DNA from: an uncultured Desulfobacterales bacterium
GTDB lineage: Bacteria; Desulfobacterota; Desulfobacteria; Desulfobacterales; JAFDCJ01
DNA: 25,731 bases
Direction of reading: 5' to 3'
Assembly: GCA_945787595.1 (NCBI GenBank)
Contig: CALZJV010000053.1
Location: 1-25,731 of the forward strand
Position numbers and translations under genes: made by a program. The notes beneath the pieces are model-generated. The model saw only the letters and a list, made by a program, of their open reading frames with translations. It was not told where the DNA came from and ran no database searches. How positions within the stretch are numbered: the stretch's first letter is position 1; every line of letters begins with the position of its first letter. Shown here piece by piece: positions 500 through 25,731 of this stretch.

Positions 500-636
500 T
501 AGAAAGGTTAAACAGTAAAGCTGTATTAGCAGGTTCGAATCTAAGCGATGGAGAGCATGAAATAATTAAAAATGTATCCGGTTTTAAATATCCAATAAAG
601 GTTGTTATCATCGATATTGGCAATTTTAGATCATAA
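496..636 (+). CDS. Tiny overlapping ORF, possibly a degenerate receiver fragment
   Basis: A 46-codon frame begins at a TTG that overlaps the stop of the solute-binding protein gene (TTGA) and ends at TAA 634-636. An AGGAG-like sequence sits at 481-485, ten bases upstream, so translational coupling is possible. The peptide, with segments such as 'LSDGEHEIIKNVSG' and 'PIKVVIIDIGNF', faintly resembles the middle of a CheY-type receiver (the helix after the phosphoacceptor and the next strand), but the expected Asp is replaced by Gly or Ser. I do not recognise a definite family. It may be a remnant of a response regulator or a chance frame. Confidence 0.25.
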   Translation: MIERLNSKAVLAGSNLSDGEHEIIKNVSGFKYPIKVVIIDIGNFRS

Positions 637-667
637 TCTCTCGCTCCGTTTAAGGAGAATTCAAAAA

Positions 668-3600
668 ATGTTTCTTGTCAAAAGCCTGAGAGCAAAAACG
701 ATAATATCCACCCTAATTCCGATTGTCCTGGTGCTGGCAGGCCTGACGTTCATCGTGTTTTATTCCTATGAGCGGGTGGCTCAAGAGGGTGTCAAGCAGC
801 GCGACGCCGAGTTGGCAAGAATATCTGCAAACCGGCTCTCCGAAGGCTTGCATCGGGCCTGCCGGATTCTTCAGGATATGGCGGTTGCCGACGACATTCA
901 ATCTATGGAACCGGCCCGGTTGCAGTCGGCTTTAGACAAAGCTCGGCCGCAACTTGCTGTTTTTGATGTCGGGGTTGCAGTTTATGACAGGGAGGGTGCA
1001 AATCTATCACAACGGCAGGGGATGGATTTTCCAATCAAATCCAAATTCAATGAAGCCTATGGTACGCTACGACCGGTATTTTCAGACGTTTTCAAATATC
1101 CAAGCTCAGGTGAAGACGTGATTTTGGTTGGAGTCTCGATTGTGGAAAGGGACGGGAGCTTCAAAGGTTTGCTGGCCGGAGTGAGTACGATCAAACTCTC
1201 TTTGCTCGGGGGACTGTATGCCAAGGTGCTCGATTTAAAAGCAGGTCGCAGTGGCTATGCATATTTGGTGGATAGAAGCGGACGGGTGATTTACCATCGT
1301 CACAGCTCAATGATCGGGAGGACTCTTAAATCCGTCCTACCGGTGATGCGGGTGACCATGGGGGAGACCGGCGCTGTTATCACCAAAGATGAGATCGGTG
1401 AGCCTATCGTCTCCGGATTTGCTCCGGTGCCGGGCACGGGGTGGGGGGTTGTCACCCAGGAGAACTGGGAAAATATTGTTGACCCCATTCGTAAACACAG
1501 TCAGATGGTTCTGATTCTATTGACAGTGGGCGGAATTTTTTCCTGCTTGCTGATATTTTTTTCTATTGGTCGAATTTTAAAACCTGTCAAGAATTTGGCC
1601 CTGGGTGCCCAAAGGATCGCCAACGGGGATTTCGGCTACAAAGTCGACGTAAAGACCGGTGATGAAATCGAAGTTTTGGCCAGGCAATTCAACGATATGT
1701 CCGCTGCCTTGAAAACATCCTTTACCGAGCTGGAAGAGCGCGTGGTTGAGTGCGGGCAAGGTGAAACGGCACTCAGGCAAAGCGAGGAAAAGTATCGTAA
1801 AATACTGGAGAGCATGGAGGAGGGGTATTATGAAGTTGACACTGCCGGGAACATGGTCTTCTTCAACGATTCGACGAGCCAAATATTGGGCTACCCTGCC
1901 GAGGAGCTGTTGGGAATGAACAACCGGGCCTATATGGACGAAGCGTTCAGCGAGAAGGTATACGAGACGTTCAACGAAGTGTATCGCACCGGCAAACCCG
2001 TAAAGGCTTTTGATTGGAAAATTGTCAGAAAAGATGGAACCGAACGCTGGGTAGAGGCCTCTGTTTCTCTGCGCAAAGACGCCGATGGACAGACAGTCGG
2101 GTTTCAGGGAGTCTGTCGGGATGTCACCGAGCGCAAACTGACTGAAAGGGAACTGGCCGGACATCGCGAGCATTTGGAACAAATGGTGGATGAGCGCACC
2201 CGTGCGCTCACTGAGTCCAATCGCAAGCTCTCGCAACAGATTGCCGAGCGCAAACAGGCCGAGTACGCTCTGCGGTTCACCCAATTTGCCGTCGATCACG
2301 CTGAGGTGGCCGCATTTTGGATGAATTCGGATGCGCGTTTTATTTACGCCAACGAAGCGGCCTGCGCTGCCTTGGGTTATGCGCCTGAGGAATTGCTGTC
2401 CATGACGGTGCACGACATCGACCCGGACTTTTCCGCGGAAGTCTGGCCGGCGCACTGGAACGAGGTCAGGCAGCGCGGCTCATTTATCATCGAATCCCGT
2501 CACCGCGCCAAAGATGGCAGGATTTATCCGGTCGAAATCAGCATCAATTACATGGAATTCGAGGGGAAAGAATTTTCCTGCGCTTTCGCCCGGGACATCA
2601 CGGAGCGCAAGCGGGCCCAGGAAGAATTGCACCGCCAAAATGAATATCTGTCGGCCCTGCACGACACCACCCTGGACCTGATCAGCCGCCTTGATCTGGA
2701 TGAGTTGCTTGCAGCCCTTGTCACCCGGGCCGGGCAGCTGCTGGACGCCCGGCACGGTTTTATCTACCTGGCCGAGCCCGGGGCAAAAGAACTGGAGCTC
2801 AAAGTCGGTATTGGACCTTTCGGCCGCAAATCCTCTAAATACATGGAACCGGGCGAAGGCCTGGCAGGCAGAGTCTGGCAGACCGGCAAACCCCTGGCGA
2901 TCAAGGATTACGACTCATGGACGGGCCGCTCGCCCAGTTTTGAGTATAATGTTATCAGCAGCACGGTTGGGGTGCCGCTTACCCGGACCCGGCGCACATC
3001 CGAATCCGGTCCTCAGGCTGCCGGTGTGATTGGCCTGGCCTATGATGCCACGTCGGACCGGATCTTTGGTGAGGCAGAGGTCGAACTGCTGAGCCGATTT
3101 GCGCAACTCGCGTCCATCGCCTTGGAGAACGCCCGGCTGTACCAGGAAACCCAGCGAAGGGCCATGGAGATGTCCGCCCTGTTTCGGATGGCTTCGGAAT
3201 TGGCTGCCACACTCGACGAAACCGAGGTTTGTCGACGCGTGGTGCACGGGCTGCACGATACCCTGGGTTACGATGTTCTGGCGCTCTACATGTTGGATGA
3301 GGCCACCGGTGACCGGGTGCATGCCGCCAGCATCGGTTATGATGAGCCCCACGACCGCCTCACGTGCGATCAGGGACTGGGCGGGCGTCCACTTTTGGAC
3401 GGCAAACTCCATTACGTGCCGGACGTTTCCAAAGACCCTTGCTATTTTTACGGCGCATGGGGTTCCGAAGTGGATGTGCCGGTTAGAATCGGGGAAAAGG
3501 TGCTCGGTGTGCTGATTGCTGAAAACAGGGAGCCGCACGCCTTCATTCAGAATGATTTTGAGGTGCTCACCGCAGCCGCCCAGCAGGCCGGTCTTGCCTT

Positions 3601-5125
3601 CGAGAACGCGAACTTGTTTGCGGAGGTTCAGGGCCAAAAACAGTATTCCGAGTCTTTGGTTCAGAACAGCCCGGTCGCAATTGTGGCTGTTGATATGGAC
3701 TGTAATGTGTCGCTATGGAATCCGGCCGCAGAGAAGTTGTTCGGTTATACCCAGTCGGAGGCAGTAGGGCGCGACCTGGATGCTTTGGTCACGACCACGC
3801 CGGAAATGCTAACGGGCGCCCGCAGTATCACGCAGAAAATGATGGACGGGATGAGTGTTTTTCATACCATTACCCGGCGCGGCCGCCGGGACGGAACGCT
3901 GGTGGATGTTGAAATATCGGCCGTGCTGGGAGATGGCCATGACATCGGCCATATTACCATCTATCACGACATCACCGAGCTAAAACGGGCTGAGCGAGCC
4001 CTCCAAGAAAGTCGTGTCAAGTATCGTGATCTGGTCGAAAACGCAAACTGCATCATCTTGGAAATCGATACCCGGGGTGATGTCACGTTCCTCAACCGAT
4101 TTGCCCGGGATTTCTTTGAGTACAGTGAGTCAGAGATTCTGGGCCGCAACGTGGTGGGCACCATTGTCCCGGCAGCAGACTCAAACGGAAGGGATCTTGA
4201 GCTCATGATTCAGGATCTGGTCAGTCATCCCGAGAGATACATCGACAATGAAAATGAGAATATGCGCCGCAACGGGGAACGAGTGTGGGTGGCCTGGACC
4301 AACAGGGCAATCTACGACCACGAAGATCGTCTGTCCGATATCCTCTGCATCGGCATTGACAGGACCGAGCAGAAGCGGACGGCAGAAGAATTGCGGGAAG
4401 CCAAAATAGCAGCCGAAGCTGCCAATCAGGCCAAAAGCGCCTTTCTAGCCAATATGAGCCACGAACTGAGAACCCCATTGAACGCCATCTTGGGATACAC
4501 AGAGCTGATTTCAGATAAAATTTACGGTGAGATACCCGAGAAGATTCAGGATGTATTAGCGCGTCTGGAGAAAAATGGTCGCCACCTCCTGAGTCTGATC
4601 AATGATGTTCTCGATCTTTCGAAAATCGAGGCAAAACAACTCCCGCTCTCCATCAACGAATATTCAATGAAGGAAGTTGTTCATACGGTTATGACCGGGG
4701 TCGAGTCCTTGGTGGCCGAAAAAAGCCTCGCAATACAGGCCACGGTTCCTCCAAACCTCCCGAAGGGCAAAGGTGATGAACAGCGCATTGTCCAGGTCTT
4801 TTTAAATCTAGTCGGCAATGCAATTAAATTTACTGAAAAAGGCGAAGTGAAGATAGAAGTCGATGAGTCCGACGGTGGCTTTTTGGTATCAATTTCCGAC
4901 ACCGGTTCCGGTCTGTCGGAAACCGATCAGCAAAAAATATTCGAAGAGTTTCATCAGGTTGACAGCTCCAGTACGCGGCAAAAGGGTGGCACGGGCCTCG
5001 GTCTTTCAATTGCCAAAAGAATCATAGAAATGCACGGCGGGCGTATTTGGGTGGAGTCCAGTCTCGGAAAAGGCTCTACCTTCCGGTTTACTTTGCCATT
5101 TCGCATAGGTCAGCAAAAGGAGTAA
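668..5125 (+). CDS. Large membrane sensor histidine kinase: Cache-HAMP-PAS-PAS-GAF-GAF-PAS-PAS-HisKA-HATPase
   Basis: The start at ATG 668 is chosen because AAGGAG lies at 652-657. The frame stays open upstream to a TTG at 602, but nothing supports initiation there. It gives 1485 residues. Order: TM1 about 12-32; periplasmic dCache domain about 35-275; TM2 about 279-303; HAMP about 300-353; PAS 373-490; PAS 535-648; GAF 672-825; GAF 835-985; PAS 993-1105; PAS 1118-1238; HisKA with phospho-acceptor His1265 in 'NMSHELRTPLN'; HATPase with the N box 'NLVGNAIKF' and G boxes 'DTGSGL' and 'GGTGLGLS'. There is no receiver on the chain; the response regulator is the next gene, three bases on. The central PAS/GAF stretch (about 2100-3950) is G+C-richer than either end, which suggests domain shuffling. 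The signal sensed is unknown. The last 230 residues closely match the second kinase in the window. Confidence 0.93.
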   Translation: MFLVKSLRAKTIISTLIPIVLVLAGLTFIVFYSYERVAQEGVKQRDAELARISANRLSEGLHRACRILQDMAVADDIQSMEPARLQSALDKARPQLAVFDVGVAVYDREGANLSQRQGMDFPIKSKFNEAYGTLRPVFSDVFKYPSSGEDVILVGVSIVERDGSFKGLLAGVSTIKLSLLGGLYAKVLDLKAGRSGYAYLVDRSGRVIYHRHSSMIGRTLKSVLPVMRVTMGETGAVITKDEIGEPIVSGFAPVPGTGWGVVTQENWENIVDPIRKHSQMVLILLTVGGIFSCLLIFFSIGRILKPVKNLALGAQRIANGDFGYKVDVKTGDEIEVLARQFNDMSAALKTSFTELEERVVECGQGETALRQSEEKYRKILESMEEGYYEVDTAGNMVFFNDSTSQILGYPAEELLGMNNRAYMDEAFSEKVYETFNEVYRTGKPVKAFDWKIVRKDGTERWVEASVSLRKDADGQTVGFQGVCRDVTERKLTERELAGHREHLEQMVDERTRALTESNRKLSQQIAERKQAEYALRFTQFAVDHAEVAAFWMNSDARFIYANEAACAALGYAPEELLSMTVHDIDPDFSAEVWPAHWNEVRQRGSFIIESRHRAKDGRIYPVEISINYMEFEGKEFSCAFARDITERKRAQEELHRQNEYLSALHDTTLDLISRLDLDELLAALVTRAGQLLDARHGFIYLAEPGAKELELKVGIGPFGRKSSKYMEPGEGLAGRVWQTGKPLAIKDYDSWTGRSPSFEYNVISSTVGVPLTRTRRTSESGPQAAGVIGLAYDATSDRIFGEAEVELLSRFAQLASIALENARLYQETQRRAMEMSALFRMASELAATLDETEVCRRVVHGLHDTLGYDVLALYMLDEATGDRVHAASIGYDEPHDRLTCDQGLGGRPLLDGKLHYVPDVSKDPCYFYGAWGSEVDVPVRIGEKVLGVLIAENREPHAFIQNDFEVLTAAAQQAGLAFENANLFAEVQGQKQYSESLVQNSPVAIVAVDMDCNVSLWNPAAEKLFGYTQSEAVGRDLDALVTTTPEMLTGARSITQKMMDGMSVFHTITRRGRRDGTLVDVEISAVLGDGHDIGHITIYHDITELKRAERALQESRVKYRDLVENANCIILEIDTRGDVTFLNRFARDFFEYSESEILGRNVVGTIVPAADSNGRDLELMIQDLVSHPERYIDNENENMRRNGERVWVAWTNRAIYDHEDRLSDILCIGIDRTEQKRTAEELREAKIAAEAANQAKSAFLANMSHELRTPLNAILGYTELISDKIYGEIPEKIQDVLARLEKNGRHLLSLINDVLDLSKIEAKQLPLSINEYSMKEVVHTVMTGVESLVAEKSLAIQATVPPNLPKGKGDEQRIVQVFLNLVGNAIKFTEKGEVKIEVDESDGGFLVSISDTGSGLSETDQQKIFEEFHQVDSSSTRQKGGTGLGLSIAKRIIEMHGGRIWVESSLGKGSTFRFTLPFRIGQQKE

Positions 5126-5127
5126 AC

Positions 5128-6261
5128 ATGAGAAAGAGGCCTCTGATTTTAATCGTAGATGATAATCCCGAGGCTTTGGACATTTTCGGGACTCGGCTTG
5201 CCACTCTCGATTACGAGATAATCACGGCGCCCGACGGTGAAACCGGGCTGGCGATGGCAAGACGGGAAAAGCCGGATTTAATCTTGTTGGACATTATGAT
5301 GCCCATAATGGATGGGCTGACCGTTTGCCGAGAGCTCAAATCAGACCCTGCATTTCCATTTATACCGATTATTCTGGTTACGGCCAAATCCGATACCAAA
5401 GACGTCGTCGCTGGTTTGGAAGCCGGTGGCGATGAATATCTGACGAAGCCGGTTGAGCACGCAGCGCTGGTTGCTAGGGTCGGGTCGATGCTCAGGATCA
5501 AAGGCTTGCACGACAAAGTTCTCGAGCAGTCGGCTCAGCTCAGGATTCAACTCGAAGCAGCCACCAAGGTTCAATGCCTTTTTTGGCCCGAGATCCCAAA
5601 GATGGAGGCCGGCAGCCATGTTTGGGCCATTTCAGTTCCGGCGGCATACGTCGGCGGGGATTTGTATGATGTCATCAAACTGCCGGACGGCAGTTGGTTG
5701 TTGTACGTTGCCGATGTTTCCGGCAAAGGCGTTCCGGCGGCGTTGATTATGGCGGCGTTGTCTACCAAGATTCGAAGTGAAGTCACATTGCGACCTAATC
5801 TCGAAGACCTGATTGAAACCGTAAATAATGTCATGTACTATCTTATGACCGGAGAAAGTTTTTTTGCCACAATCATTCTCGGCAGGTACTGGCCGTCCAC
5901 CGGGAGAATGCAACTTGTCCATTGCGGTCATCTTCAGCCCCTGTGGATCACTAATGAAGGTTTTAAAGAGTTACCCGAATTGAAAGGTATATCCTTAGGC
6001 CTCAAACCGGATACCCGGTACGAAACAAAAGAGATTTCAATAACTCCGGGAGAATCGCTTTTATTTTTTTCCGACGGAGTTGTTGAAGCCGAGAATGAAA
6101 GTCAGGAGCTTTATGGACCTGATCGGTTGACGGATTATATAAAAAACAGCAACGGTCCGCCATTGGGAGAAGGACTTTTGAAGGAAATAAAAAATTGGCG
6201 CGGAAAAGCCAAGGCAAACGATGATTTGACATTGCTTGAGATATGGCGGGATCCGCAATGA
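5128..6261 (+). CDS. Response regulator with SpoIIE/RsbU-type PP2C phosphatase output
   Basis: The start is ATG 5128, with AAGGAG at 5117-5122 inside the end of the kinase gene; the longer frame back to 5047 lies within that gene. It encodes 377 residues. The receiver (about 5-122) has the acidic pair Asp11/Asp12, phosphoacceptor Asp55 in 'LILLDIMMP', Thr85 and Lys107 in 'LTKP'. After a coiled linker comes a PP2C-like SpoIIE phosphatase (about 150-375) with metal-binding Asp178 ('VGGDLYD'), Asp196 ('VADVSGKG'), a 'FFSDGVVEAEN' motif and the closing 'NDDLTLLEI'. In this family phosphorylation of the receiver controls dephosphorylation of an anti-sigma-factor antagonist or similar STAS partner. 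No STAS or anti-sigma gene lies in the window, so the partner is elsewhere. Spacing and order make the preceding kinase the likely phosphodonor. Confidence 0.92.
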   Translation: MRKRPLILIVDDNPEALDIFGTRLATLDYEIITAPDGETGLAMARREKPDLILLDIMMPIMDGLTVCRELKSDPAFPFIPIILVTAKSDTKDVVAGLEAGGDEYLTKPVEHAALVARVGSMLRIKGLHDKVLEQSAQLRIQLEAATKVQCLFWPEIPKMEAGSHVWAISVPAAYVGGDLYDVIKLPDGSWLLYVADVSGKGVPAALIMAALSTKIRSEVTLRPNLEDLIETVNNVMYYLMTGESFFATIILGRYWPSTGRMQLVHCGHLQPLWITNEGFKELPELKGISLGLKPDTRYETKEISITPGESLLFFSDGVVEAENESQELYGPDRLTDYIKNSNGPPLGEGLLKEIKNWRGKAKANDDLTLLEIWRDPQ

Positions 6262-6292
6262 ATAGATTTGAAATTGGAAAAAGATTCAGGTG

Positions 6293-6450
6293 CAATATCA
6301 GGTCCGGCTGCTTTTCTCTGACCATCGCCAAGCCCGCTTCGCCGTCTGTCGCAGTAATGATCTCGTAGTTGTTGGCGGCAAGACGCGCTTGAAGAATGTC
6401 CAGGTTACGGGATTATCATCCACAATTAGTATCAGTGGCGGCGTTTTCAT
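6293..6450 (-). pseudogene. Response-regulator receiver relic, frameshifted and truncated
   Basis: Reading the minus strand from ATG 6450, the peptide begins 'MKTPPLILIVDDNP', a canonical receiver N-terminus, preceded by AAGGAGG at 6461-6455. After 'DDNP' the frame breaks: two bases (6408-6407) separate it from a continuation in the next frame reading 'NLDILQARLAANNYEII' and then 'GLAMVREKQPDLIL'. Homology stops at about 6293, exactly before the phosphoacceptor Asp would appear. It closely parallels the N-terminus of the neighbouring SpoIIE regulator ('LILIVDDNPEALDIF', 'EKPDLILL'). It lies 22 bases after the stop of the single-domain receiver gene and was probably the third gene of that operon. 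It is almost certainly non-functional; a one-base loss plus loss of the whole 3' part explains it. Confidence 0.8.
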
Positions 6451-6472: not shown

Positions 6473-6838
6473 CTATGCAAAAAACTTCCTGATCTTCGCC
6501 AGAAGTTTACGCGGACTATACGGTTTGGAAACATACGCATCACATCCGGCCTCATATGCCTTGGCTTCATCGCCGCTCAGCGCATAAGAGGTGACCGCAA
6601 TGACCGGGATTGAGCTCAGGGCGGGGTTGGCTTTGATCCGCCTCGTAGCCTCGTATCCGTCGAAATCGGGTAGTTGAATGTCCATCAGGATCAAGTCGGG
6701 ACAGTGGGCCTCGGCTGACATCACCCCCGCTTCTCCGGTGACAGCCTCAATCACCTTATAGCCGGCGCTTGTGAGAAGATCTCGCATGATACGCCGATTA
6801 TCCTCCTGGTCTTCAATAATTAAAATCAGCTCGCTCAT
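6473..6838 (-). CDS. Single-domain response regulator (CheY/DivK-like receiver)
   Basis: This is a 121-residue protein with nothing beyond a receiver. Key residues are the acidic pair Glu9/Asp10 ('IIEDQEDNRR'), phosphoacceptor Asp53 ('LILMDIQLP'), Thr83 and Lys105 ('VSKPY'). Its ATG overlaps the stop of the upstream kinase (ATGA) and an AGGAAG/AAGG sequence precedes it, so the two are translationally coupled and almost surely cognate. 'YEATRRIKANP' and 'AKAYEAGCDAYVSKP' are typical of stand-alone receivers that act by protein-protein contact or phosphorelay and not by binding DNA. The relic of a further receiver follows. With that partner lost, the output of the pathway is unclear. Confidence 0.92.
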   Translation of the reverse strand: MSELILIIEDQEDNRRIMRDLLTSAGYKVIEAVTGEAGVMSAEAHCPDLILMDIQLPDFDGYEATRRIKANPALSSIPVIAVTSYALSGDEAKAYEAGCDAYVSKPYSPRKLLAKIRKFFA

Positions 6839-8832
6839 CCTTGCTTCCTTTGCTTTTCGACCCAGATACGGCCCCCGTGCATTTCGACTATTTTTTTGGA
6901 AATAGAGAGTCCGAGACCGGTTCCGCCCTTTTTTCGGGTACTGGATCCGTCGACTTGGTGGAATCCTTCGAAAATTTTCTTTTGCTCAACTTCCGCAAGT
7001 CCGGGACCCGTATCGGACACAGAGACCAAAAACGTTTGGTTGGCAGCGGTCGCCTCGGCCTTGATTTCTCCCTCATTGGTAAATTTGATTGCGTTTCCGA
7101 CCAGATTCAGAATCACCTGAGCAATGCGTTGTTCGTCTCCTTTGCCTGTTGGTAGATCTTTGGAAACTTTGACCTTCAAATCCAGTTTCTTTTCCGCTGC
7201 CAATGCCTTCACCGTGGTAAAGACCGTTTGAATCACCTCTCCCATCGAATATTCATTGAGAGAAACGGTAATCTGGCCTGCTTCGATCTTGGAAAGATCA
7301 AGAACATCATTGATCAGGCTAAGCAGGTGACGCCCACTTTTTTCGAGGTGTTTCAGAACCTCCTGGATTTTTTCCGGTACCTTACCGTATATGTTATCAA
7401 GGATCAGCTCCGTATAGCCCAGGATGGCATTCAGGGGGGTTCTAAGTTCATGGCTCATGTTGGCAAGAAACTCGGACTTGTGCTTGTTGGCGATCTCCAG
7501 CTCGCACCCCTTTTCCTCGATCTCACGAAAAAGCCGCGCGTTGTGGATGGCGAGCACCGACTGTGCAGCAAAAGTCTGAAGCAGGTCCACGACCGGTGCG
7601 GGAAACTCGCCGGCCGCCTTGCGCCGGACGACCAGTCCACCAATGAGGCGGTCTTCGCTCAGCAGCGGTAATGCGAGCAGGGCTTGATAGCCCGCTTGCT
7701 GAACTAAAGGGAAGGGGTTGCCCGGTACGTCTGCAAGATCCGGAATCTGATGCGGAGCGCACTTAATAGCGGCCTGGCCGATAACCGTTCGGTCCCCCAC
7801 ACGCAGCCTCGACTCGTGCAGCGCTTCGATGAACTCTGCGCTCACACCGTAGTTTATCCGCGGTAGGAATACCCCCTCCGCTTCGTCGAACTCGTAAATC
7901 GTTCCGGCATCGGTCTTCGAGAGCTGCACCGCGTGGCGAACAATACTCGTCAGAACCGTTTCCGGATCGAGAGTGGAGCTGACTGCCTGGCTTACTTCTC
8001 CCAAGGCTTTCAGTTCTTCCACTGACCGGGCCAACTCCCGGGTACGCACTTCTACTCTTTGCTCTAAGGTTCGGTTGTACTCCTCTAATTTTTCTTTGCT
8101 CTCGCTAAGTTCCGAGAATAACTGCTTAATCGATCCCCGCATGATATCCAGATGCTGCGCGAGTACTCCAATCTCGTCACGACTGCTTTTATCAACAAAA
8201 GTGTCCAAATCACCCCGGGCGATCAATGAGGCTGATTCCTGTAATTTCAGTAATGGGGAAGAGATATACCGTATCGTGATGAAGATGGATGTGAGCCAGA
8301 TTGCTGCGATAATAAGGATTAACAAGGCAATCGTGCCGTAAATTTGAAAAACCATCTGTTTTTTCACGTTTTCGCGCGACATTACGATTAGAATCTTGCC
8401 GATTATTTTTTCTTCAAAGTAAATATCGGATGATTTGGCTATCAGTTCAGAGTCTTTTAACAATGCCGGGGACATCTCCGGCTCAATTTTTTGGAGCTGA
8501 AAACCAGGGCGTTTTTTCTCAGTGATAACCTGACCTTTCCACGATATCTTTGTATAAACAATTGATTCATCTAAAAATAAGGCCTCAACAAAATCAGCTA
8601 CAACTACGTGGTCCAGGTTCCATAAAGGGATTGCCAGACTGTTCCGTGCAAACTCGATGGCATTATCTAACCGCGTTTCCAGCTCGTTCTCGATTTTGTT
8701 GATGTCAAAAAAGATGACTACTGCAGCAAAAACGATTAATAATAGAGTAATTATACCGATTAAGGCGTAACTGAAACGATGGCTGATGCTACTGACTTTA
8801 GGAGAGGTCTTAGATGAAGAGGCTTTCTGCAT
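6835..8832 (-). CDS. Membrane sensor histidine kinase (HAMP-GAF-HisKA-HATPase) with damaged C-terminus
   Basis: The start is taken at ATG 8832 (665 residues), with AAAGG nine bases before it; a GTG at 8838 is also in frame but too close to that site. TM1 is about 22-42, the periplasmic sensor about 43-160, TM2 about 162-187, then HAMP, a coiled coil ('LEEYNRTLEQRVEVRTREL'), GAF about 275-440, HisKA with His461 in 'NMSHELRTPLN', and HATPase with 'NLVGNAIKF', 'DTGPGL' and 'GGTGLGLS'. It is highly similar to the end of the 1485-aa kinase, except that it stops at 'RIWVEKQRKQG', losing the last beta strand and the G-K-G-S-x-F motif. The bases coding G-K-G-S-K survive in another frame next to the receiver's start. 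Whether it still binds ATP is uncertain. It may be on the way to becoming a pseudogene. Confidence 0.87.
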   Translation of the reverse strand: MQKASSSKTSPKVSSISHRFSYALIGIITLLLIVFAAVVIFFDINKIENELETRLDNAIEFARNSLAIPLWNLDHVVVADFVEALFLDESIVYTKISWKGQVITEKKRPGFQLQKIEPEMSPALLKDSELIAKSSDIYFEEKIIGKILIVMSRENVKKQMVFQIYGTIALLILIIAAIWLTSIFITIRYISSPLLKLQESASLIARGDLDTFVDKSSRDEIGVLAQHLDIMRGSIKQLFSELSESKEKLEEYNRTLEQRVEVRTRELARSVEELKALGEVSQAVSSTLDPETVLTSIVRHAVQLSKTDAGTIYEFDEAEGVFLPRINYGVSAEFIEALHESRLRVGDRTVIGQAAIKCAPHQIPDLADVPGNPFPLVQQAGYQALLALPLLSEDRLIGGLVVRRKAAGEFPAPVVDLLQTFAAQSVLAIHNARLFREIEEKGCELEIANKHKSEFLANMSHELRTPLNAILGYTELILDNIYGKVPEKIQEVLKHLEKSGRHLLSLINDVLDLSKIEAGQITVSLNEYSMGEVIQTVFTTVKALAAEKKLDLKVKVSKDLPTGKGDEQRIAQVILNLVGNAIKFTNEGEIKAEATAANQTFLVSVSDTGPGLAEVEQKKIFEGFHQVDGSSTRKKGGTGLGLSISKKIVEMHGGRIWVEKQRKQG

Positions 8833-8838
8833 GAACAC

Positions 8839-12501: not shown

Positions 12502-13860
12502 TCATTGGGGATTCAGCGGCGCAAGTGTTGCCTCGCCGGGCAACGTCGTTTCCTTTGTTCGCATATCTTTATTCCTCCAGTACGCCAATTCACGATATAG
12601 CGCCTCTCCCTGCCAGGGTGTCTGAGCATCGCGTCCAGCTGTCTTTTGGTAAAGTCGTCTTTCGAGCTCACCCACTTCCTTCGAAAGTTTCTCACTGCCC
12701 ACCGCTTCCAGGAAGTTTTTGAGAGTTGCAGCGCCGGGATCGGATGCCGTTTTATTCAGCCAGGCCACCATGCGGTTGTATGCGGTCTTTGAATCATTAT
12801 TGCGGCAGGCCTCACGCAAGCGAGTGAAATATGCTTTTTCTGACTGACGGCGCTCACGCCGCCATGTTTGCCAGCGGGTCCGCATGGCATGCCTGAATCG
12901 CCATGCACTGCCTGCCAGCAGCAGCAACAGAAAAACGACGGGCAGCAGGCCTTCTGTTTTCCTTTGTCGGCCGTCTTCTAGTGTTTTTTCTGCGAATGTT
13001 TCGGGATCCGATCCGGGAACAGCGGTTATCTTGACCACAAGCGCCGGAAGGACCACTTCTTTCAGTTTTTTCTGGCTGATATCCCACCACGGAACAACGA
13101 TTTGCGGCAATTCAAAAGACCCCTCTTTCTCGAACACGTAGGTCACCGTCTCCGTCCGTTTCCCGGTGAGGCTTCCGCGGGAATAGCTGTCGGCAACATC
13201 GGATTCGCCGGGATAAATCCCCAGCCCGCTGATGGTAGGGAATTCAGACGGGGCAAACGCCATTCCCGATATATCCGGGGCGCTCAGCTCGATGATTCGC
13301 TTGACAGCATCGCCCACCTTGAATTCCTGTGACGGCGGCGTCCATTGCTGTTGGGCCTTCAACTCCGTGGTGCTGATGATGCCCTTCCGGTTCTCGGCCC
13401 CGGGAGGGATTTTGACCTCGAATTCAGCGGCAGGGGTTTTCATGTGTTGGGATGTGGTTTCCGCCTCGCTGCCCCATCGACGGACTTCCACATCGATGGG
13501 AATCGGTGGAACGGTAATCGTTCCGCCTTGCTGGGCGAACAACGACATCTCATAGCGCTGCCCCCCATAGTCGTGCCCGGAGATGGTCTCGTTCAAACGG
13601 GTACCCTGGCTCTCCAATCGGACCACATAGGCGCCCGGCACTTCGAAATCACGGGCCGTTTTTATCTGCGCCCAGCCGTCGCGGGCCAGAACATCCACCT
13701 GCAGGACGGCACGCTGGCCGACCCAGATGTCCGCTTTGGCATTGCCAATGGCAGAACGGACAATAATCGGCGCCGGCTCGGCGGCATGTCCCGGCGACAG
13801 AATAAATTGCCCGAAAAAGAGCATGGCTGAAATGACTGCTGTTCGAAGGTAATCGATCAT
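12502..13860 (-). CDS. batD: BatD-like membrane protein (aerotolerance operon)
   Basis: The product is 452 residues from ATG 13860, with only a weak AGGG upstream. It has a signal peptide about 1-27, then a periplasmic region of beta-rich Ig-like domains ('WVGQRAVLQVDVLARDGW' and 'GGTITVPPIPIDVEVRRW' are characteristic BatD segments), a transmembrane helix near 305-323 ('LLPVVFLLLLLAG') and a cytoplasmic helical tail. The start is 62 bases after the TPR gene and the stop overlaps a potential start of the phosphatase. In this family BatD is membrane-anchored and is thought to work with the BatA/BatB von Willebrand proteins and a MoxR ATPase; its exact biochemical role is not established. Identification rests on domain layout and its place after BatA, BatB and the TPR protein. 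Confidence 0.82.
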   Translation of the reverse strand: MIDYLRTAVISAMLFFGQFILSPGHAAEPAPIIVRSAIGNAKADIWVGQRAVLQVDVLARDGWAQIKTARDFEVPGAYVVRLESQGTRLNETISGHDYGGQRYEMSLFAQQGGTITVPPIPIDVEVRRWGSEAETTSQHMKTPAAEFEVKIPPGAENRKGIISTTELKAQQQWTPPSQEFKVGDAVKRIIELSAPDISGMAFAPSEFPTISGLGIYPGESDVADSYSRGSLTGKRTETVTYVFEKEGSFELPQIVVPWWDISQKKLKEVVLPALVVKITAVPGSDPETFAEKTLEDGRQRKTEGLLPVVFLLLLLAGSAWRFRHAMRTRWQTWRRERRQSEKAYFTRLREACRNNDSKTAYNRMVAWLNKTASDPGAATLKNFLEAVGSEKLSKEVGELERRLYQKTAGRDAQTPWQGEALYRELAYWRNKDMRTKETTLPGEATLAPLNPQ

Positions 13861-18321: not shown

Positions 18322-19290
18322 CTACGCCACGGCCACCAGTTTCACAATTTCGTCGATCACCTGATCTGCGGTGATGCCCTCGGCGTTGGCCTCGTACGAG
18401 AGGATGATGCGGTGACGGAGGCATTGGTGGATCACCGCCTGGATATCCTCGGGGGTGACATACGCACGTCCCTGGAGCCACGCATGCGCACGCGACACTT
18501 TGTCCAAAGCGATCGATCCCCGTGGGCTGGCCCCGATCAGAAGCCATCGTTTCAGATCCTCCCCGTAGCCGTCCGGACGCCGCGTTGCTGCAATCAAGCT
18601 GACAATATAGAATTCAACGGCCTCGGACACTTCCACGCTATCGATTTGTGCGCGGGCGTCAATAATCACCTGCTGGGGCATTTGTTCTGGCGGCGCGGCC
18701 GCCGCCCCTGCCTTTGACTCGCCTCGAACCAGCCGGATGATCTCAAGCTCGGCGGCATCGTCCGGATGGGTGATGGTGACGTGGATCAGGAAACGATCCA
18801 TCTGTGCTTCGGGCAGCGGATAGGTTCCTTCCTGCTCGATAGGATTCTGAGTCGCCAGCACCATAAAAAGGTCCGGGAGCCGGTGCGTCGTGCCGGCCAC
18901 CGTGACCTGCCGCTCTTCCATGGCCTCCAGCAGGGCGGCCTGGACCTTGGCCGGCGCGCGGTTGATTTCATCGGCCAGGATCAAGTTGCCGAAGATCGGC
19001 CCGGGTTGGAATTTAAATTCGCCCTTGCCGCCTTCGGAGTAGTATACCTCCGCACCGGTCACGTCCGACGGAAGCAAGTCCGGCGTGAACTGGATGCGCT
19101 GAAATTCGGATTCGAGCTGTGTCGACAGGGTCTTGATGGCGCGGGTCTTGGCCAGGCCTGGCAAGCCTTCCATCAGCACGTTGCCGTTGCACAGCAGTGC
19201 AATGATCAACTGTTCGATGACGGTTTCCTGGCCGATGATGGACTGGGCCATCTGGGCTTTAATCTGCAAAATTGACTCACGTGTGTTCAT
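18322..19290 (-). CDS. MoxR-type AAA+ ATPase
   Basis: The 322-residue product starts at ATG 19290, with GAGAGG five to six bases upstream. Walker A is at 42-49 ('GLPGLAKT'), Walker B has Asp107-Glu108 ('LILADEINRAP'), and sensor 1 is 'LATQNPIEQEGTYPLPEAQ', all standard for MoxR. The C-terminal lid contains 'GASPRGSIAL', the family's sensor-2 region. MoxR ATPases act as chaperones that mature or insert cofactors into partner proteins, the classic case being periplasmic methanol dehydrogenase. No dehydrogenase is nearby; the hydrolases of this locus are candidate clients (inference). Its start overlaps the stop of the small secreted protein by four bases. Confidence 0.95.
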   Translation of the reverse strand: MNTRESILQIKAQMAQSIIGQETVIEQLIIALLCNGNVLMEGLPGLAKTRAIKTLSTQLESEFQRIQFTPDLLPSDVTGAEVYYSEGGKGEFKFQPGPIFGNLILADEINRAPAKVQAALLEAMEERQVTVAGTTHRLPDLFMVLATQNPIEQEGTYPLPEAQMDRFLIHVTITHPDDAAELEIIRLVRGESKAGAAAAPPEQMPQQVIIDARAQIDSVEVSEAVEFYIVSLIAATRRPDGYGEDLKRWLLIGASPRGSIALDKVSRAHAWLQGRAYVTPEDIQAVIHQCLRHRIILSYEANAEGITADQVIDEIVKLVAVA

Positions 19291-19718
19291 GGGATCCTCT
19301 CAAATTCGACCTCGAATTGCTGCTTGATTGCGGCCTGGAAATAGATGCCCACCAGTCGATCTCTGACCGGATCGTATGCCAGCGTGTAGGTAGAGCCGGG
19401 ATAATTCGGCGCGCGCAGCTCGACAAAAGCGCCAAGGTGACCCTCCTGATGTTTCCAGGCAGCCCGCGATACATGGATCGGGTGCGGATTAAAATAGGCC
19501 GCTTTCAACCGGCCGTCCGGGCCGGGATCGCTCAGTTGCAGGATGTAGCCGCCGTCGGGCCGCAGCCAACGCCCCACCAGCTTGGCCGGGTCCGGGCCGG
19601 CCGCCGAGGTGGTTTCGGCATGGGACCAGAATGGATAGGCGCCGTATGCCTGAACAAACAGCCCTGCCGACAAGATAGCGGCAAAGCAAAAGGTTTTTGT
19701 TGCAGACCAAAGTTTCAT
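19287..19718 (-). CDS. Small secreted protein of unknown function, first gene of the MoxR/Bat operon
   Basis: ATG 19718 is chosen: GAGG lies five to six bases upstream and a signal peptide follows ('MKLWSATKTFCFAAIL', cleavage near residue 26), while the longer frame from 19808 adds a hydrophilic stretch in front of it. The mature part of about 117 residues is compact and beta-rich, with 'LVGRWLRPDGGYILQL', 'AYFNPHPIHVSRA', 'LRAPNYPGSTYTLAYDP' and 'GIYFQAA'. It reads like a small lipocalin-like barrel. I do not recognise a named family, though I have an impression of similar conserved proteins elsewhere. There is no lipobox. Its overlap with moxR (ATGA) makes it part of the operon and a likely periplasmic partner or client. 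Confidence 0.7.
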   Translation of the reverse strand: MKLWSATKTFCFAAILSAGLFVQAYGAYPFWSHAETTSAAGPDPAKLVGRWLRPDGGYILQLSDPGPDGRLKAAYFNPHPIHVSRAAWKHQEGHLGAFVELRAPNYPGSTYTLAYDPVRDRLVGIYFQAAIKQQFEVEFERIP

Positions 19719-19935
19719 TGTGTCCTCATCGCATGGAAAACGCTTTTTGGCCGGGGCACTGGATTCATTGGCGGGTTTGAATCGATTGGCTTGGCCGCGT
19801 CCATCCATTGCGGGCGCGTGGTCAAGCCTTCAATGCCAAGCCACCAATGTTTTGGAATGCCACGATTTTTCATCCGCTGCGGGAGCCAATCGGCCTCCCG
19901 GCCGGGAAGACCGAAAACCCGACGGATGTTTTAGG

Positions 19936-19963: not shown

Positions 19964-20093
19964 ATACTGATTGCACAAACCCTTCCCTGAGTTAGTCGGA
20001 ATTTGCATAAGCCCTTTTTTGCGAATCTGCTCCAGAATTTTCAGGGCCTTCAGCAAACGGCAGTTTATGTCCCCGGCATTTAACACCATCCCT

Positions 20094-20113
20094 TCCTGGA
20101 ATGTCCTGGAATG
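20094..20113. repeat. Perfect 10-bp tandem duplication inside the sulfatase pseudogene
   Basis: TCCTGGAATG occurs twice head to tail (20094-20103 and 20104-20113). Ten bases shift the frame, and excision of one unit rejoins the family's normal C-terminal sequence, so it is a recent slippage-type mutation. Confidence 0.9.
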
Positions 20114-21051
20114 GATAACCATCCAAGCTAGCGATAAATTTCTGTATCTCCACCTGAATCGGGACGAACAGCCACATGTTGTCCACCATCCATCGCACGT
20201 ACATCTCCGACTCTTCCCAGGCATGTTCGTAAGGGTCGGCCTTCAGATGGACAATTGCCGGCCATGCGGTTTCGTTGCGGATTGCGTCGTTGATTGCGCC
20301 ATCGAGTTGCGCGAAATGAACCTTCCAGTCATTCCAGCGTACTGCGTTCAACTCTCCGCCCTGGCCGAAGTAGAAGATCTGTTCGCGCGGCCCCTTGTCG
20401 GTCTCGCCTTTGAATCGAGGCAAGAAGTTGTAACCGTCGATATGCACCTTCCACTGCTTGCCATTGGCGGTGTGGCCTTTCTTGACCTTCTCGACGATGT
20501 CAGGTTCGCCCACCGCCGCCATCAGGGTCGGCATCCTGTCTTCCTGGCTGATGATGTCATTATTCTTGGTGCCGGGCTCGATTACCCCGGGCCATTTCAC
20601 CAACAGCGGCACACGGAAGCCGCCCTCCCATGTGGTGCCCTTCTCGCCCTTGAACGGGGTGATGCCGCCATCTGGCCAGGACACGGTTTCGGCCCCGTTG
20701 TCGGAGCTGTAGATGATGATGGTATTCTCGGCGATGCCAAGTTCATCGAGCTTGTCAAGCAAAGTCCCCACGTGATCGTCATGTTCGACCATGCCGTCCG
20801 GATAGAGGCCGATGCCGGTAAGGCCTTCGGCTTCTTTTTTCAGACGCGTCCAGACGTGCATGCGCGTGGTATTCATCCAAACGAAGAACGGCTTCTTCGC
20901 CGCGTGAGCGCGGTCGATGCAACAAAAACCGGCTTCTCGATGTCAATCGGCGGACGGCGAAAAACATCGACGTTTTTTGTTACGGTTAATATCGACGGCA
21001 AAGCAAGGCTGCCAAACGAAAAGATTGGCGCCCGGCGGGTGTAATCCCAAA

Positions 21052-22704: not shown

Positions 22705-23073
22705 TCAAATCATTTTATAATTGAAGACACCATGGATTGCTGGTAATTTCATGGAGTATTGCAGTAGGTGAATTTTTGTGTGGGGTAAGATTTCTAATTC
22801 TTCAGGAAAAGTATTACCACTCGATAGCGGGTCAACAAATTTTTCTTGATAGTCCTCGAATTTAATCTTTGTACATTTGCTATGGCATTCTACAATATTT
22901 CGTAAGAGTGCGAATTGTGGATGCCTCAATATATCATCTGAGGCATGCCTGTAACTGCTTGGTTTGCGAATTAAAGAATCCGAGCCCAGCTTCCGGCCCG
23001 TAGGGCCTACAGCCCGGAGGGAGGACCAGAATTTCAATATTGAATTAAATCCATAAGTTTCCAAAATTGCCAT
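22705..23073 (-). CDS. Doubtful ORF, unrecognised
   Basis: A 122-codon frame starts at an ATG placed directly after the T run of the qmo terminator, with no ribosome site. The first part ('SSLRAVGPTGRKLGS') is simply the translation of the palindrome at 22993-23017, which argues against a conserved protein. The second part ('EELEILPHTKIHLLQYSMKL') looks more protein-like, but I recognise no family. If it is not a gene, 22603-23127 is non-coding. In front of the sulfatase it contains TTGACA (22708-22703, minus strand) and TATAAT (22678-22673), which are too far apart to make a normal promoter pair. Confidence 0.25.
   Translation of the reverse strand: MAILETYGFNSILKFWSSLRAVGPTGRKLGSDSLIRKPSSYRHASDDILRHPQFALLRNIVECHSKCTKIKFEDYQEKFVDPLSSGNTFPEELEILPHTKIHLLQYSMKLPAIHGVFNYKMI
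22993..23017. repeat. Imperfect G+C-rich palindrome (REP-like)
   Basis: Twelve-base arms CCGGCCCGTAGG and CCTACAGCCCGG pair around a single G with two mismatches, inside an otherwise A+T-rich stretch. The compositional contrast and symmetry suggest a small dispersed repeat, which cannot be confirmed from one copy. Confidence 0.45.
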
Positions 23074-23074
23074 T

Positions 23075-23105
23075 AAAAAGGGAAGCCGATAAAGCTTCCC
23101 TTTTT
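23075..23105 (-). terminator. Bidirectional rho-independent terminator after qmoC
   Basis: Perfect 12-base arms (AAAAAGGGAAGC and GCTTCCCTTTTT) enclose a seven-base loop. On the minus strand the stem is followed by the T run right after the qmoC stop at 23128, so it closes the qmo operon. The plus direction has six T residues and could work too. Confidence 0.85.
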
Positions 23106-23127
23106 TGCTTTTATTTTCGATAATTAC

Positions 23128-23571
23128 TTAAAAATTCCGCCCGGCATACTCATTGTAGGCCATGGCCACCGTACGATACACCAGATGAGATAGCTTCGAA
23201 AAGGGCAGATAGACGATCATGCTGAAAACCAGCATGAGATGAATGTAATATAACACGTAACAAATAAAGGCCCAGCCGGCAAGTCTGGTCAGCTCGGTCG
23301 CCATGCCGCTGACGCCCAATCCGAAAGCAAGATAAACGAGGTACCAATCCCAGTAACCGGATACCTGATCTTCCTTAGCCTTGCGGTTTTTGATCAAAAG
23401 GGTGGTTCCAACGATAATGGCAATACCACTCAGATTGGCCAGCCATTTGACGGGATTCAGTTGAGACCAGGGTCCATGTAAAGGACCGTCGGGAAGTAAA
23501 TAGGAGCCATAGAGCACTAGAAAAATAATACTGGTCACGATAAAGCAGCCGATAAAACCATACATCGTCAA
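23128..23571 (-). CDS. qmoC: QmoC C-terminal membrane part, separated from its N-terminus by a frameshift/deletion
   Basis: This frame codes for the cytochrome-b-like, menaquinone-interacting membrane half of QmoC: 'YGFIGCFIVTSIIFLVLYG', 'NPVKWLANLSGIAIIVG', 'VSGMATELTRLAGWAF', 'YLPFSKLSHLVYRTVAMAY', with His and Arg residues in the helices. The called start is a TTG at 23571 without a ribosome site. QmoC-like sequence continues upstream in the same frame ('GFYKFSDCTENNEREVAHLL') to about 23625, so this is not an independent gene but the 3' part of a broken one. It ends at 23128, just before the terminator. It could only be made by re-initiation or if the break is a sequence error. Confidence 0.75.
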   Translation of the reverse strand: MTMYGFIGCFIVTSIIFLVLYGSYLLPDGPLHGPWSQLNPVKWLANLSGIAIIVGTTLLIKNRKAKEDQVSGYWDWYLVYLAFGLGVSGMATELTRLAGWAFICYVLYYIHLMLVFSMIVYLPFSKLSHLVYRTVAMAYNEYAGRNF

Positions 23572-24128
23572 CAGGTGGGCAACTTCACGTTCGTTATTCT
23601 CCGTGCAATCCGAAAACTTATAGAACCCGGAACCATAACCATATCCACCAGCCAGGTGGATATAAATTTGTAATGTTTGATCCCTTCGCTGGTATCCGGA
23701 GTAAAATCGAGCAGACCGGTAATTAGTCCAATCACAAGAAACAAGACGGCCGGAATTGCCAGTAAAATCGGCAGTTTTTTAGGATCTTTCAAGGCTTTGG
23801 CCAAGGCTTTCGGCTGGGCGTACTCCGAAATCGTGTATGAACGCACGGCCGCCAGCACATCTCCCGGTTTGGCCTCCCGCGGGCAGAGGGTCGAGCAATC
23901 GCCACAGTTGTGGCACAGCCAGATGTCGGAATTACCCACAAGCTTGTCTTTCAAGCCCCAGGATGCCGCAATCATCTCCTTGCGAGGAAAGGGTTTGGTG
24001 TCCGGAGAAATCGGACAGGCCACCGAGCAGGTGGCGCACTGATAACACTTTTTCAAGTCCTCACCGCCCAGAGCCCCCACTTCCTTGATAAAATCTAAAT
24101 CAGGCTCGATAAGGTATGCTTCCGTCAT
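23568..24128 (-). CDS. qmoC: QmoC N-terminal part (iron-sulfur domain and first membrane helix), gene broken by internal deletion
   Basis: ATG 24128 has GGGAGG seven bases upstream and is preferred to ATG 24143. Two [4Fe-4S] motifs of the HdrC type are intact ('CYQCATCSVACP' and 'CHNCGDCSTLCP'), followed by a transmembrane helix ('LPILLAIPAVLFLVIGLI') and 'HYKFISTWLVDMVMVPG'. After that Pro-Gly the frame turns into a nonsense tail ending at TGA 23568, while real QmoC sequence resumes in the next frame at 'GFYKFSDC'. From what I recall of the family, some fifty residues including a second helix are missing between the two. QmoC passes electrons between menaquinone and QmoAB for APS reduction, so a break here should disable the complex, unless the gap is an assembly or sequencing fault. 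Confidence 0.8.
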   Translation of the reverse strand: MTEAYLIEPDLDFIKEVGALGGEDLKKCYQCATCSVACPISPDTKPFPRKEMIAASWGLKDKLVGNSDIWLCHNCGDCSTLCPREAKPGDVLAAVRSYTISEYAQPKALAKALKDPKKLPILLAIPAVLFLVIGLITGLLDFTPDTSEGIKHYKFISTWLVDMVMVPGSISFRIARRITNVKLPTC

Positions 24129-24157
24129 ATTTCTACCTCCCATTACAATTGAATAAT

Positions 24158-24224: not shown

Positions 24225-25730
24225 TTAGAATCCCTTGAACGGGTTCGGACCCATTTCCTCAACCTGGGCCGCAAAATCATCGATGATTTGTGGAATCTTG
24301 TCATACTCATCAATCGCCACCTGGAACTGGGCAACCCGCTCTTCTTCCAGCGCCAGACTCGACAGAGCTTCACCGATCTTTTTCATCCGGATCTCGGCAA
24401 GTTCGCTGCCTTTTACAAAGTGGCACTGGTAGTCATCGCCGTGCTTGCAGCCTAGCAGAAAAACACCGTCCATACCTTGGGCGAGGGCATCCTTGATCCA
24501 GATCACGTTGACAGATCCTAGACATCTGACCGGGATAAGGCGCACCTCCGCCGAATACGTCATCCGGTTCAGCCCGACAATATCCAAGGCCGGGTAGGCG
24601 TCGTTTTCACAAACCAGTCCCAGAATCCGCAAGGGCGGTTCGTCAAAATCGTCTTCGGAAGGCACACCGATGGCCTTGACCATGGACCCGATACTGTCAA
24701 TGCTGTAATCGACAAAGTTGATAATCCGCTCCGGGCAGCATCCCATGCAGGTGCCGCAGCGCCGACAGCGCGCCGGATTGGGTTTGGGCGTTCCCTTCTC
24801 ATCATCATCAATGGCCCCGAACGGGCATTCCTCGGTACAGCGCTTGCACTGGGTACAGCGCTGGAAGAAAAAGTCGGGAAACGTCATGTCACCGGATCTC
24901 GGATGGACTGAAATACCCCGGTTAACCGATTCAAGGCACTGGATGGCTTTTAGAGTTGCACCGGATGCATCTTCGATGGATTCTTCCACCGTCATGCTGC
25001 GCCGAATGCCGCCGGCCGCATAAATACCGGTTCGCTGGGTTTCATAGGGGAAGCAGATAAAGTTAGAGTCCGCATAGTCATCAAAAAGCGCATTGTCGCG
25101 GAATCCCGGTCCCTGACGGTAGGCCAGATTAACCACCGGGTCGTCTTTGGTGACCGGCACCATACCGGTGGCCAGCACCACCATGTCGGCTTTGACCTGA
25201 ACTTTTTCCCCCAGCAGGGTATTGTCGGCTTCGACAATCAGTCCGTCACCGTTCTGGGAAACACCGGTGACTTCACCTTTTGTTAGAAAGATTCCGGTAT
25301 CCTGCTGGATATTTTTGTAAAAATTTTCGGTAAGACCCAGTGTGCGCATATGTTGATAAAAAACATAGGCTTTACCGTCCGAGAAATCTTCGCGCACGTA
25401 CTTGGCCTGTTTGAGTGCAACCAGACTGGTCACGGCGCCTGCATAGGCAAAGTCTTTGTCGTCTCCCTGCCCGGGGCTCTGAATGAAAACCACCGATTTG
25501 GCTTCTCTGCCGTCGGAAGGCCGTGTGATTTTGCCGTTGGCGGCGATTTCTTCAAACTGGTGATTGGTGACAACATCAGCAACTTCACCAAAACCGAGAT
25601 GGGCAAATTCCCCCTCTTCGGGCTGATAGGGGCGCCATCCGGCAGCCAGGATAACGGCACCGAACTTTTCACCGTCCGGATCAAGGGTCAAAATATCCTT
25701 CTTGCCCTCGTTGTACTCCATGAACTTTTC
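24225..25730 (-). CDS. qmoB: QmoB, HdrA-like flavoprotein with fused MvhD domain (N-terminus outside window)
   Basis: The frame runs off the window at 25731, so the internal ATG 25721 is not the start. About 500 C-terminal residues are visible of a protein that is usually near 750. Order: Rossmann/FAD part of HdrA type ('GAVILAAGWRPYQP', 'VVLATGMVPVTKDDP', 'GIYAAGGIRRSMTVEESIEDA'); two [4Fe-4S] motifs ('CTQCKRCTEECP' and 'CRRCGTCMGCCPE'); then an MvhD/FlpD-like domain with cysteines in 'LVCENDAYPALD', 'VRCLGSVN' and 'GCKHGDDYQCH'. The HdrA-MvhD fusion next to a QmoC gene identifies QmoB. It is a cytoplasmic subunit of the quinone-interacting oxidoreductase that supplies electrons to APS reductase. 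qmoA and probably aprBA should lie upstream, beyond the window. Confidence 0.93.
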   Translation of the reverse strand, partial: EKFMEYNEGKKDILTLDPDGEKFGAVILAAGWRPYQPEEGEFAHLGFGEVADVVTNHQFEEIAANGKITRPSDGREAKSVVFIQSPGQGDDKDFAYAGAVTSLVALKQAKYVREDFSDGKAYVFYQHMRTLGLTENFYKNIQQDTGIFLTKGEVTGVSQNGDGLIVEADNTLLGEKVQVKADMVVLATGMVPVTKDDPVVNLAYRQGPGFRDNALFDDYADSNFICFPYETQRTGIYAAGGIRRSMTVEESIEDASGATLKAIQCLESVNRGISVHPRSGDMTFPDFFFQRCTQCKRCTEECPFGAIDDDEKGTPKPNPARCRRCGTCMGCCPERIINFVDYSIDSIGSMVKAIGVPSEDDFDEPPLRILGLVCENDAYPALDIVGLNRMTYSAEVRLIPVRCLGSVNVIWIKDALAQGMDGVFLLGCKHGDDYQCHFVKGSELAEIRMKKIGEALSSLALEEERVAQFQVAIDEYDKIPQIIDDFAAQVEEMGPNPFKGF

Positions 25731-25731
25731 A

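Follow-up and report, generated by a model that had tools for sequence, protein, structure and literature searches.

The window analysed here appears to be a complete contig of 25,731 nucleotides from an uncultured Desulfobacterales bacterium. Near its end it carries, on the reverse strand, qmoB and beside it a qmoC gene that is broken in the middle. The features of this locus are:

24225..25731, reverse strand: qmoB, truncated at the contig end; the visible 498 residues are intact
23568..24128, reverse strand: N-terminal qmoC open reading frame (ORF list, NCBIfam/Pfam, alignment)
23619/23620, give or take about 1-3 nt, reverse strand: deletion junction (alignment against intact homologues)
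23128..23619, reverse strand: C-terminal qmoC part in a different frame ('KFSDC...AGRNF', 163 residues of the family), covering helices 3-6 in a structural model
23066..23127, reverse strand: 3' flank of qmoC with a terminator-like hairpin (by eye)

Anatomy of the interrupted qmoC

Three-frame translation showed that the N-terminal piece follows the QmoC family for 170 residues, comprising the HdrC-like 4Fe-4S domain, transmembrane helix 1 and the first half of helix 2. Its last family-like stretch before the break reads '...STWLVDMVMVPGSI'; the family frame runs up to '...WLVDMVMVPGSI' and is followed by 16 out-of-frame residues and a TGA stop at 23570-23568. The family sequence picks up again in a different frame at 'KFSDCTENNEREVAHLL...' ('KFSDCTENN...'). 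In the ORF list the N-terminal piece begins at 24143 (24143..23568, 191 aa), and the start used by the family is the ATG at 24128, preceded by GGAGGT. The C-terminal piece is listed as 23571..23128 (147 aa), with TTG 23571 or ATG 23565 as possible starts, codons that are present in intact relatives too. The initial annotation, which had placed an internal deletion with frameshift at 23560-23640, thus described the gene correctly, and the junction falls inside that interval.

Both pieces belong to QmoC. On the NCBIfam qmoC model (NF038018, 360 positions) the N-terminal piece matches positions 1-164 and the C-terminal piece positions 227-360, and neither reaches the 300-bit cut-off (253.6 and 153.7 bits, respectively). 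The HdrC-like N-terminal domain with its two 4Fe-4S motifs is present, with Pfam 4Fe-4S dicluster matches and all alignment-invariant cysteines kept, and the gene lies beside qmoB. The membrane half is incomplete and not in one frame: residues 171-222 of the nearest intact homologue, P0121, are missing and the frame is shifted. The visible QmoB is unaffected, as had been claimed; its 498 residues contain no stop and align over their full length with five relatives (89-90%). Among the genomes, the closest C-terminal half of qmoC is that of G171 (85% at the DNA level), with a match of 84% over 556 columns from 23619 down to 23066.

Size and content of the missing segment

P0121 is a protein of 385 aa encoded on a 2,290-base contig. 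It is identical to the window at 168/170 residues on the N-terminal side and 158/163 on the C-terminal side, with 52 residues in between. Because the two halves are consecutive, lie on the same strand and are jointly identical to one intact protein at 326 of the 333 residues outside the gap, the break is not a chance juxtaposition. The 'about fifty residues' that the initial annotation gave as absent come to 52 when measured against the closest homologues, P0121 included. Taken together with the change of frame, this gap in the proteins suggests a deletion of 52 codons plus one base, or 157 nt. Judging from relatives' DNA, the ends of the junction would share a direct repeat no longer than about 3 nt; recombination between long repeats was rejected as its origin, since relatives' DNA appears to have no repeat at this site. 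Programmed frameshifting is ruled out because the 52 residues are physically absent.

To locate the missing segment in the protein we used an AlphaFold2 model of P0121 built from 67 diverse sequences (mean pLDDT 85.8, pTM 0.84); a model made earlier from nearly identical sequences had been of low quality (mean pLDDT 51.9). In the model, residues 171-222 form the second half of a long helix (158-193), a loop and a further helix (204-220), and hydropathy identifies helix 158-193 as transmembrane helix 2. The loss had been said to include a helix, and by the model it takes half a transmembrane helix together with the helix that follows. Among the best 120 of 5247 homologues, 25 of the 52 missing positions are at least 95% conserved, and the missing histidines are present in 120/120 (His188) and 99% (His221). 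QmoC carries two b hemes and has quinone activity, and one might guess that His188 is a heme ligand. A Foldseek search of the P0121 model against the PDB gave no credible match for the membrane half, for which we found no solved structure; the Fe-S part pointed to HdrC (best E 2.6e-3, none at or below 0.001). With half of helix 2, a loop, a helix and a strictly conserved histidine missing and the remainder out of frame, the gene as written would yield no working QmoC.

The segment is present in other QmoC sequences

To determine how private the lesion is, we compared the window with QmoC from other organisms. In the ranking of 5247 homologues found with the read-through query, which favours complete proteins, the segment is present in all of the best 120; it has 52 residues in 114 of them, 55 in five and 38 in one (P0206, 14 residues fewer). 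At 76 of 80 genome loci the qmoC frame is complete and of normal size (75 by script, L075 by eye). The other four comprise three cut at a contig end (L001, L059, L067) and one, L077, in which QmoC enters an N stretch and is not picked up again beyond it. A pattern-based measure of the segment worked in 60 of 79 sequences, every one of which gave the normal distance (66 or 69 residues). Within the order, 332 of 389 genomes matched the window's qmoC DNA and 57 did not, and among the matches listed none crosses the junction: each ends by query base 525 or starts at base 523 or later. Accordingly, relatives sharing the two-ORF form, which would have spoken against a simple break, were found neither among the best 120 homologues, nor at the 80 loci, nor among the listed matches from the 389 genomes.

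We also searched with the N-terminal piece for short QmoC proteins, by design of about 105-334 aa, and obtained 412 matches. Among the best 120 of these, 66 end with five or fewer foreign residues and the foreign tail is longer in 54, starting at points scattered from residue 91 to residue 324. The foreign tail of one, P0047, resembles the reverse strand of its own gene, by eye a fold-back chimera. Internal gaps of at least eight residues occur in three of the 120 (P0030, P0039 and P0067). P0030 lacks residues 131-227 and P0067 residues 198-302 (P0121 numbering); both losses are in frame and overlap the segment missing from the window, and neither protein has a junction of the window type or a frame break at it. 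Broken QmoC frames are therefore frequent among short ORFs and share no single site, a pattern easier to reconcile with errors or recent mutations than with a split gene that is conserved.

Both halves appear to be under selection

Values of dN/dS (Nei and Gojobori) for the N-terminal half were 0.05-0.08 against four relatives. For the C-terminal half they were 0.07-0.08 against three relatives, with no value for the fourth pair, and 0.125 against G171. The window halves (0.05-0.13) are thus similar to pairs of intact genes (0.035-0.165), bearing in mind that synonymous sites are near saturation in many pairs and that pairwise values average over a long time before the lesion. Among 18 close sequences, the window has five residues found in it alone, compared with 0-12 for the intact ones. 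Since decay is visible on neither side of the junction, the lesion is either real and very young, or not real.

Other genes of the contig

Eleven further genes are intact by comparison with relatives, with no lesion at that resolution: the visible qmoB, a second sulfatase and nine genes that align over most of their length (FadL-type porin, phosphodiesterase, BatD, TPR, two VWA, DUF4381, DUF58 and MoxR). No close relative of full length was available for the two large sensor/regulator genes (602-6261), for the truncated gene (2-499) or for the ORFs at 19287-19808 and 22705-23073. Besides qmoC, three genes are damaged:

6255..6450, reverse strand: response-regulator fragment with the start of a REC domain, a one-base frameshift and a cut-off end; ORF 6450..6272
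6835..8838, reverse strand: histidine kinase with an in-frame loss of 18 residues where its ATPase domain ends
19992..20919, reverse strand: sulfatase lacking about 244 residues, its N-terminal half; ORF 20876..19992

The residues missing from the kinase read 'VESTLGKGSTFRFTLPVR' in relatives and sit between two Val-Glu pairs. After the last GGRIWV-like motif the window kinase has 7 residues, compared with 20-25 in 114 of 119 relatives (the best listed of 7240); in the other five the motif was not found. The window's own kinase entry in the protein collection represents three member sequences. The response-regulator fragment is a paralogue of the intact regulator at 5047-6261. Homology of the truncated sulfatase to its nearest relative (71% identical) starts at 20919, the bases just upstream being unmatched, and the gene adjoins an intact paralogue that is 51% identical, with 126 bases (20925-21050) between the two. 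Elsewhere, sulfatase matches at E <= 1e-80 numbered 18 in 14 of 194 genomes, all in open frames of 453-585 aa.

Because the sulfatase and the response regulator both run into sequence unmatched by the relative or paralogue, they look more like true gene remnants than like dropped pieces, and the kinase deletion between Val-Glu pairs has the pattern expected of slippage in a living cell.

Error or recent mutation

Most likely, the qmoC lesion is ordinary and holds no new biology: it either is an error or arose by mutation very recently, a sequencing or assembly error being slightly the likelier. We put the probability that the break is an artefact in a canonical Desulfobacterales gene at about 0.52. 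The canonical gene would then carry, as written in the contig, what looks like a very recent 157-nt frame-shifting internal deletion; the junction may have come from a thinly covered stretch of assembly or from a read that was faulty or chimeric, and the source population would carry the whole qmoC. The intact near-copy, the preserved selection and the clustering of lesions speak for an error or a rare variant. One study traces many of the frameshifted genes in assembled bacterial genomes to assembly error (PMC11017572). Desulfovibrio vulgaris requires the Qmo complex for growth on sulfate (PMC6302107), so that a sulfate reducer is unlikely, a priori, to have a fixed loss of qmoC.

On the other side, a real change is favoured by the absence of N bases from the contig, by the apparently near-blunt junction and by the other lesions, which look natural. 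Short-read assemblers do not as a rule produce such a junction unless a read contained it. The eleven genes intact by comparison imply good base accuracy, and the in-frame losses in P0030, P0067 and P0206 make real losses in this segment conceivable; both count against an artefact. The deletion could accordingly be a very young one in living cells, a strain-level null that left QmoC from this locus unusable in bacteria that either make another livelihood or are dying out, and we rate this somewhat below even odds. As a corollary, the damaged neighbours would signal a genome in early decay. The short repeats flanking the kinase deletion, together with the sulfatase and response-regulator remnants continuing into unmatched DNA, speak for such a null. 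The nearest named relatives include an Olavius-associated Delta 1 bacterium (L003), whose bin, G003, has one fragmented sulfatase homologue, so decay is possible in the wider group. A search of six genomes of the family found no qmoC match at E <= 1e-100 in two, and these, like the 57 genomes of the order that gave no DNA match, may be incomplete or may truly lack the gene. Against a real null stand the 98% identical intact copy, the lack of any sign of relaxed selection in dN/dS or in window-only residues, and the intactness of the visible qmoB and of the eleven compared genes overall.

A related reading is that of a natural Desulfobacterales strain in which the Qmo membrane subunit has only just been lost while QmoB stays intact and under selection, and which feeds electrons to APS reductase through another partner or lives without sulfate respiration; this seems unlikely to us. 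It is very improbable that an intact qmoC elsewhere in the genome has made this copy a dispensable duplicate in decay. Duplication has some precedent, in that a single contig of G013, of the same order, gives two equal matches to qmoC, and on chromosome G004 two qmoA-like matches lie 5 kb from each other; however, the family search found one qmoC match each in four of the six genomes and none in the other two at the threshold given above, and the broken gene is the one that adjoins qmoB. A functional two-subunit QmoC, its halves made by coupled translation and then assembled, is suggested by the overlap of the N-terminal stop (TGA 23570-23568) with the C-terminal start (TTG 23571; ATG 23565) and can practically be dismissed, since the lesion removes, rather than splits off, part of the protein (half of helix 2, the helix after it and a conserved histidine), the arrangement is absent from the relatives surveyed above, and identical codons in intact relatives show that the stop and start did not arise for such a form.

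The initial annotation's reading of a broken gene stands. Of the alternatives it named, a function lost or duplicated in this organism or a piece dropped by the assembly, the evidence (98% identical intact copy, selection, two-ORF form absent from the relatives listed, damaged neighbours) leans away from an established loss.

Known systems and use of the contig

By sequence, by its place beside qmoB and by its combination of an HdrC-like Fe-S half with a membrane half, the gene is the QmoC of QmoABC (NF038018, Desulfobacterales), from which it differs in lacking 52 codons and one base mid-gene, with the frame broken. The Fe-S domain of QmoC resembles HdrC, subunit C of heterodisulfide reductase (solved as 8rvu_C and 5odc_C), by sequence and weakly by fold, but HdrC has no membrane half. 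PMC10504309 describes QmoA/B systems without QmoC, in which HdrBC or HdrD stand in; unlike those QmoAB-HdrBC complexes, the window has a canonical but broken QmoC. No separate hdrB or hdrC was found among the window proteins scanned. Terms for qmo occur in PMC10102598 in a single reference entry and in PMC10553843 not at all.

Given the intact copy, the selection on both halves, the lack of two-ORF relatives and the three other damaged genes, this contig alone should serve neither to affirm nor to deny sulfate respiration. The presence or absence of qmoC helps to score genomes as sulfate reducers, and caution is advisable where broken short ORFs are as common as here (54 of the best 120 of 412). 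If the deletion is real, it would represent a natural loss of the Qmo membrane arm next to an intact QmoB and would allow the function of QmoAB without QmoC to be tested in Desulfobacterales.

Several minor observations were made alongside. Scans for tRNA and Rfam families across the window were empty, and a plasmid search returned similarity to the arylsulfatase region only. On the chromosome of G004 (G004:C1, locus L004) the two qmoA-like matches lie at 4927295-4928020 and 4932288-4933013, with one close qmoB match adjoining. The G171 contig that carries locus L112 (G171:C620) ends near base 12597, within the segment absent from the window, which may be chance. Finally, the spacer 3' of qmoC contains a GC-rich, partly palindromic stretch at window 22978-23030 (ggcccgtagggcctacagcccggagggagg) that has, by eye, the look of a dispersed repeat.
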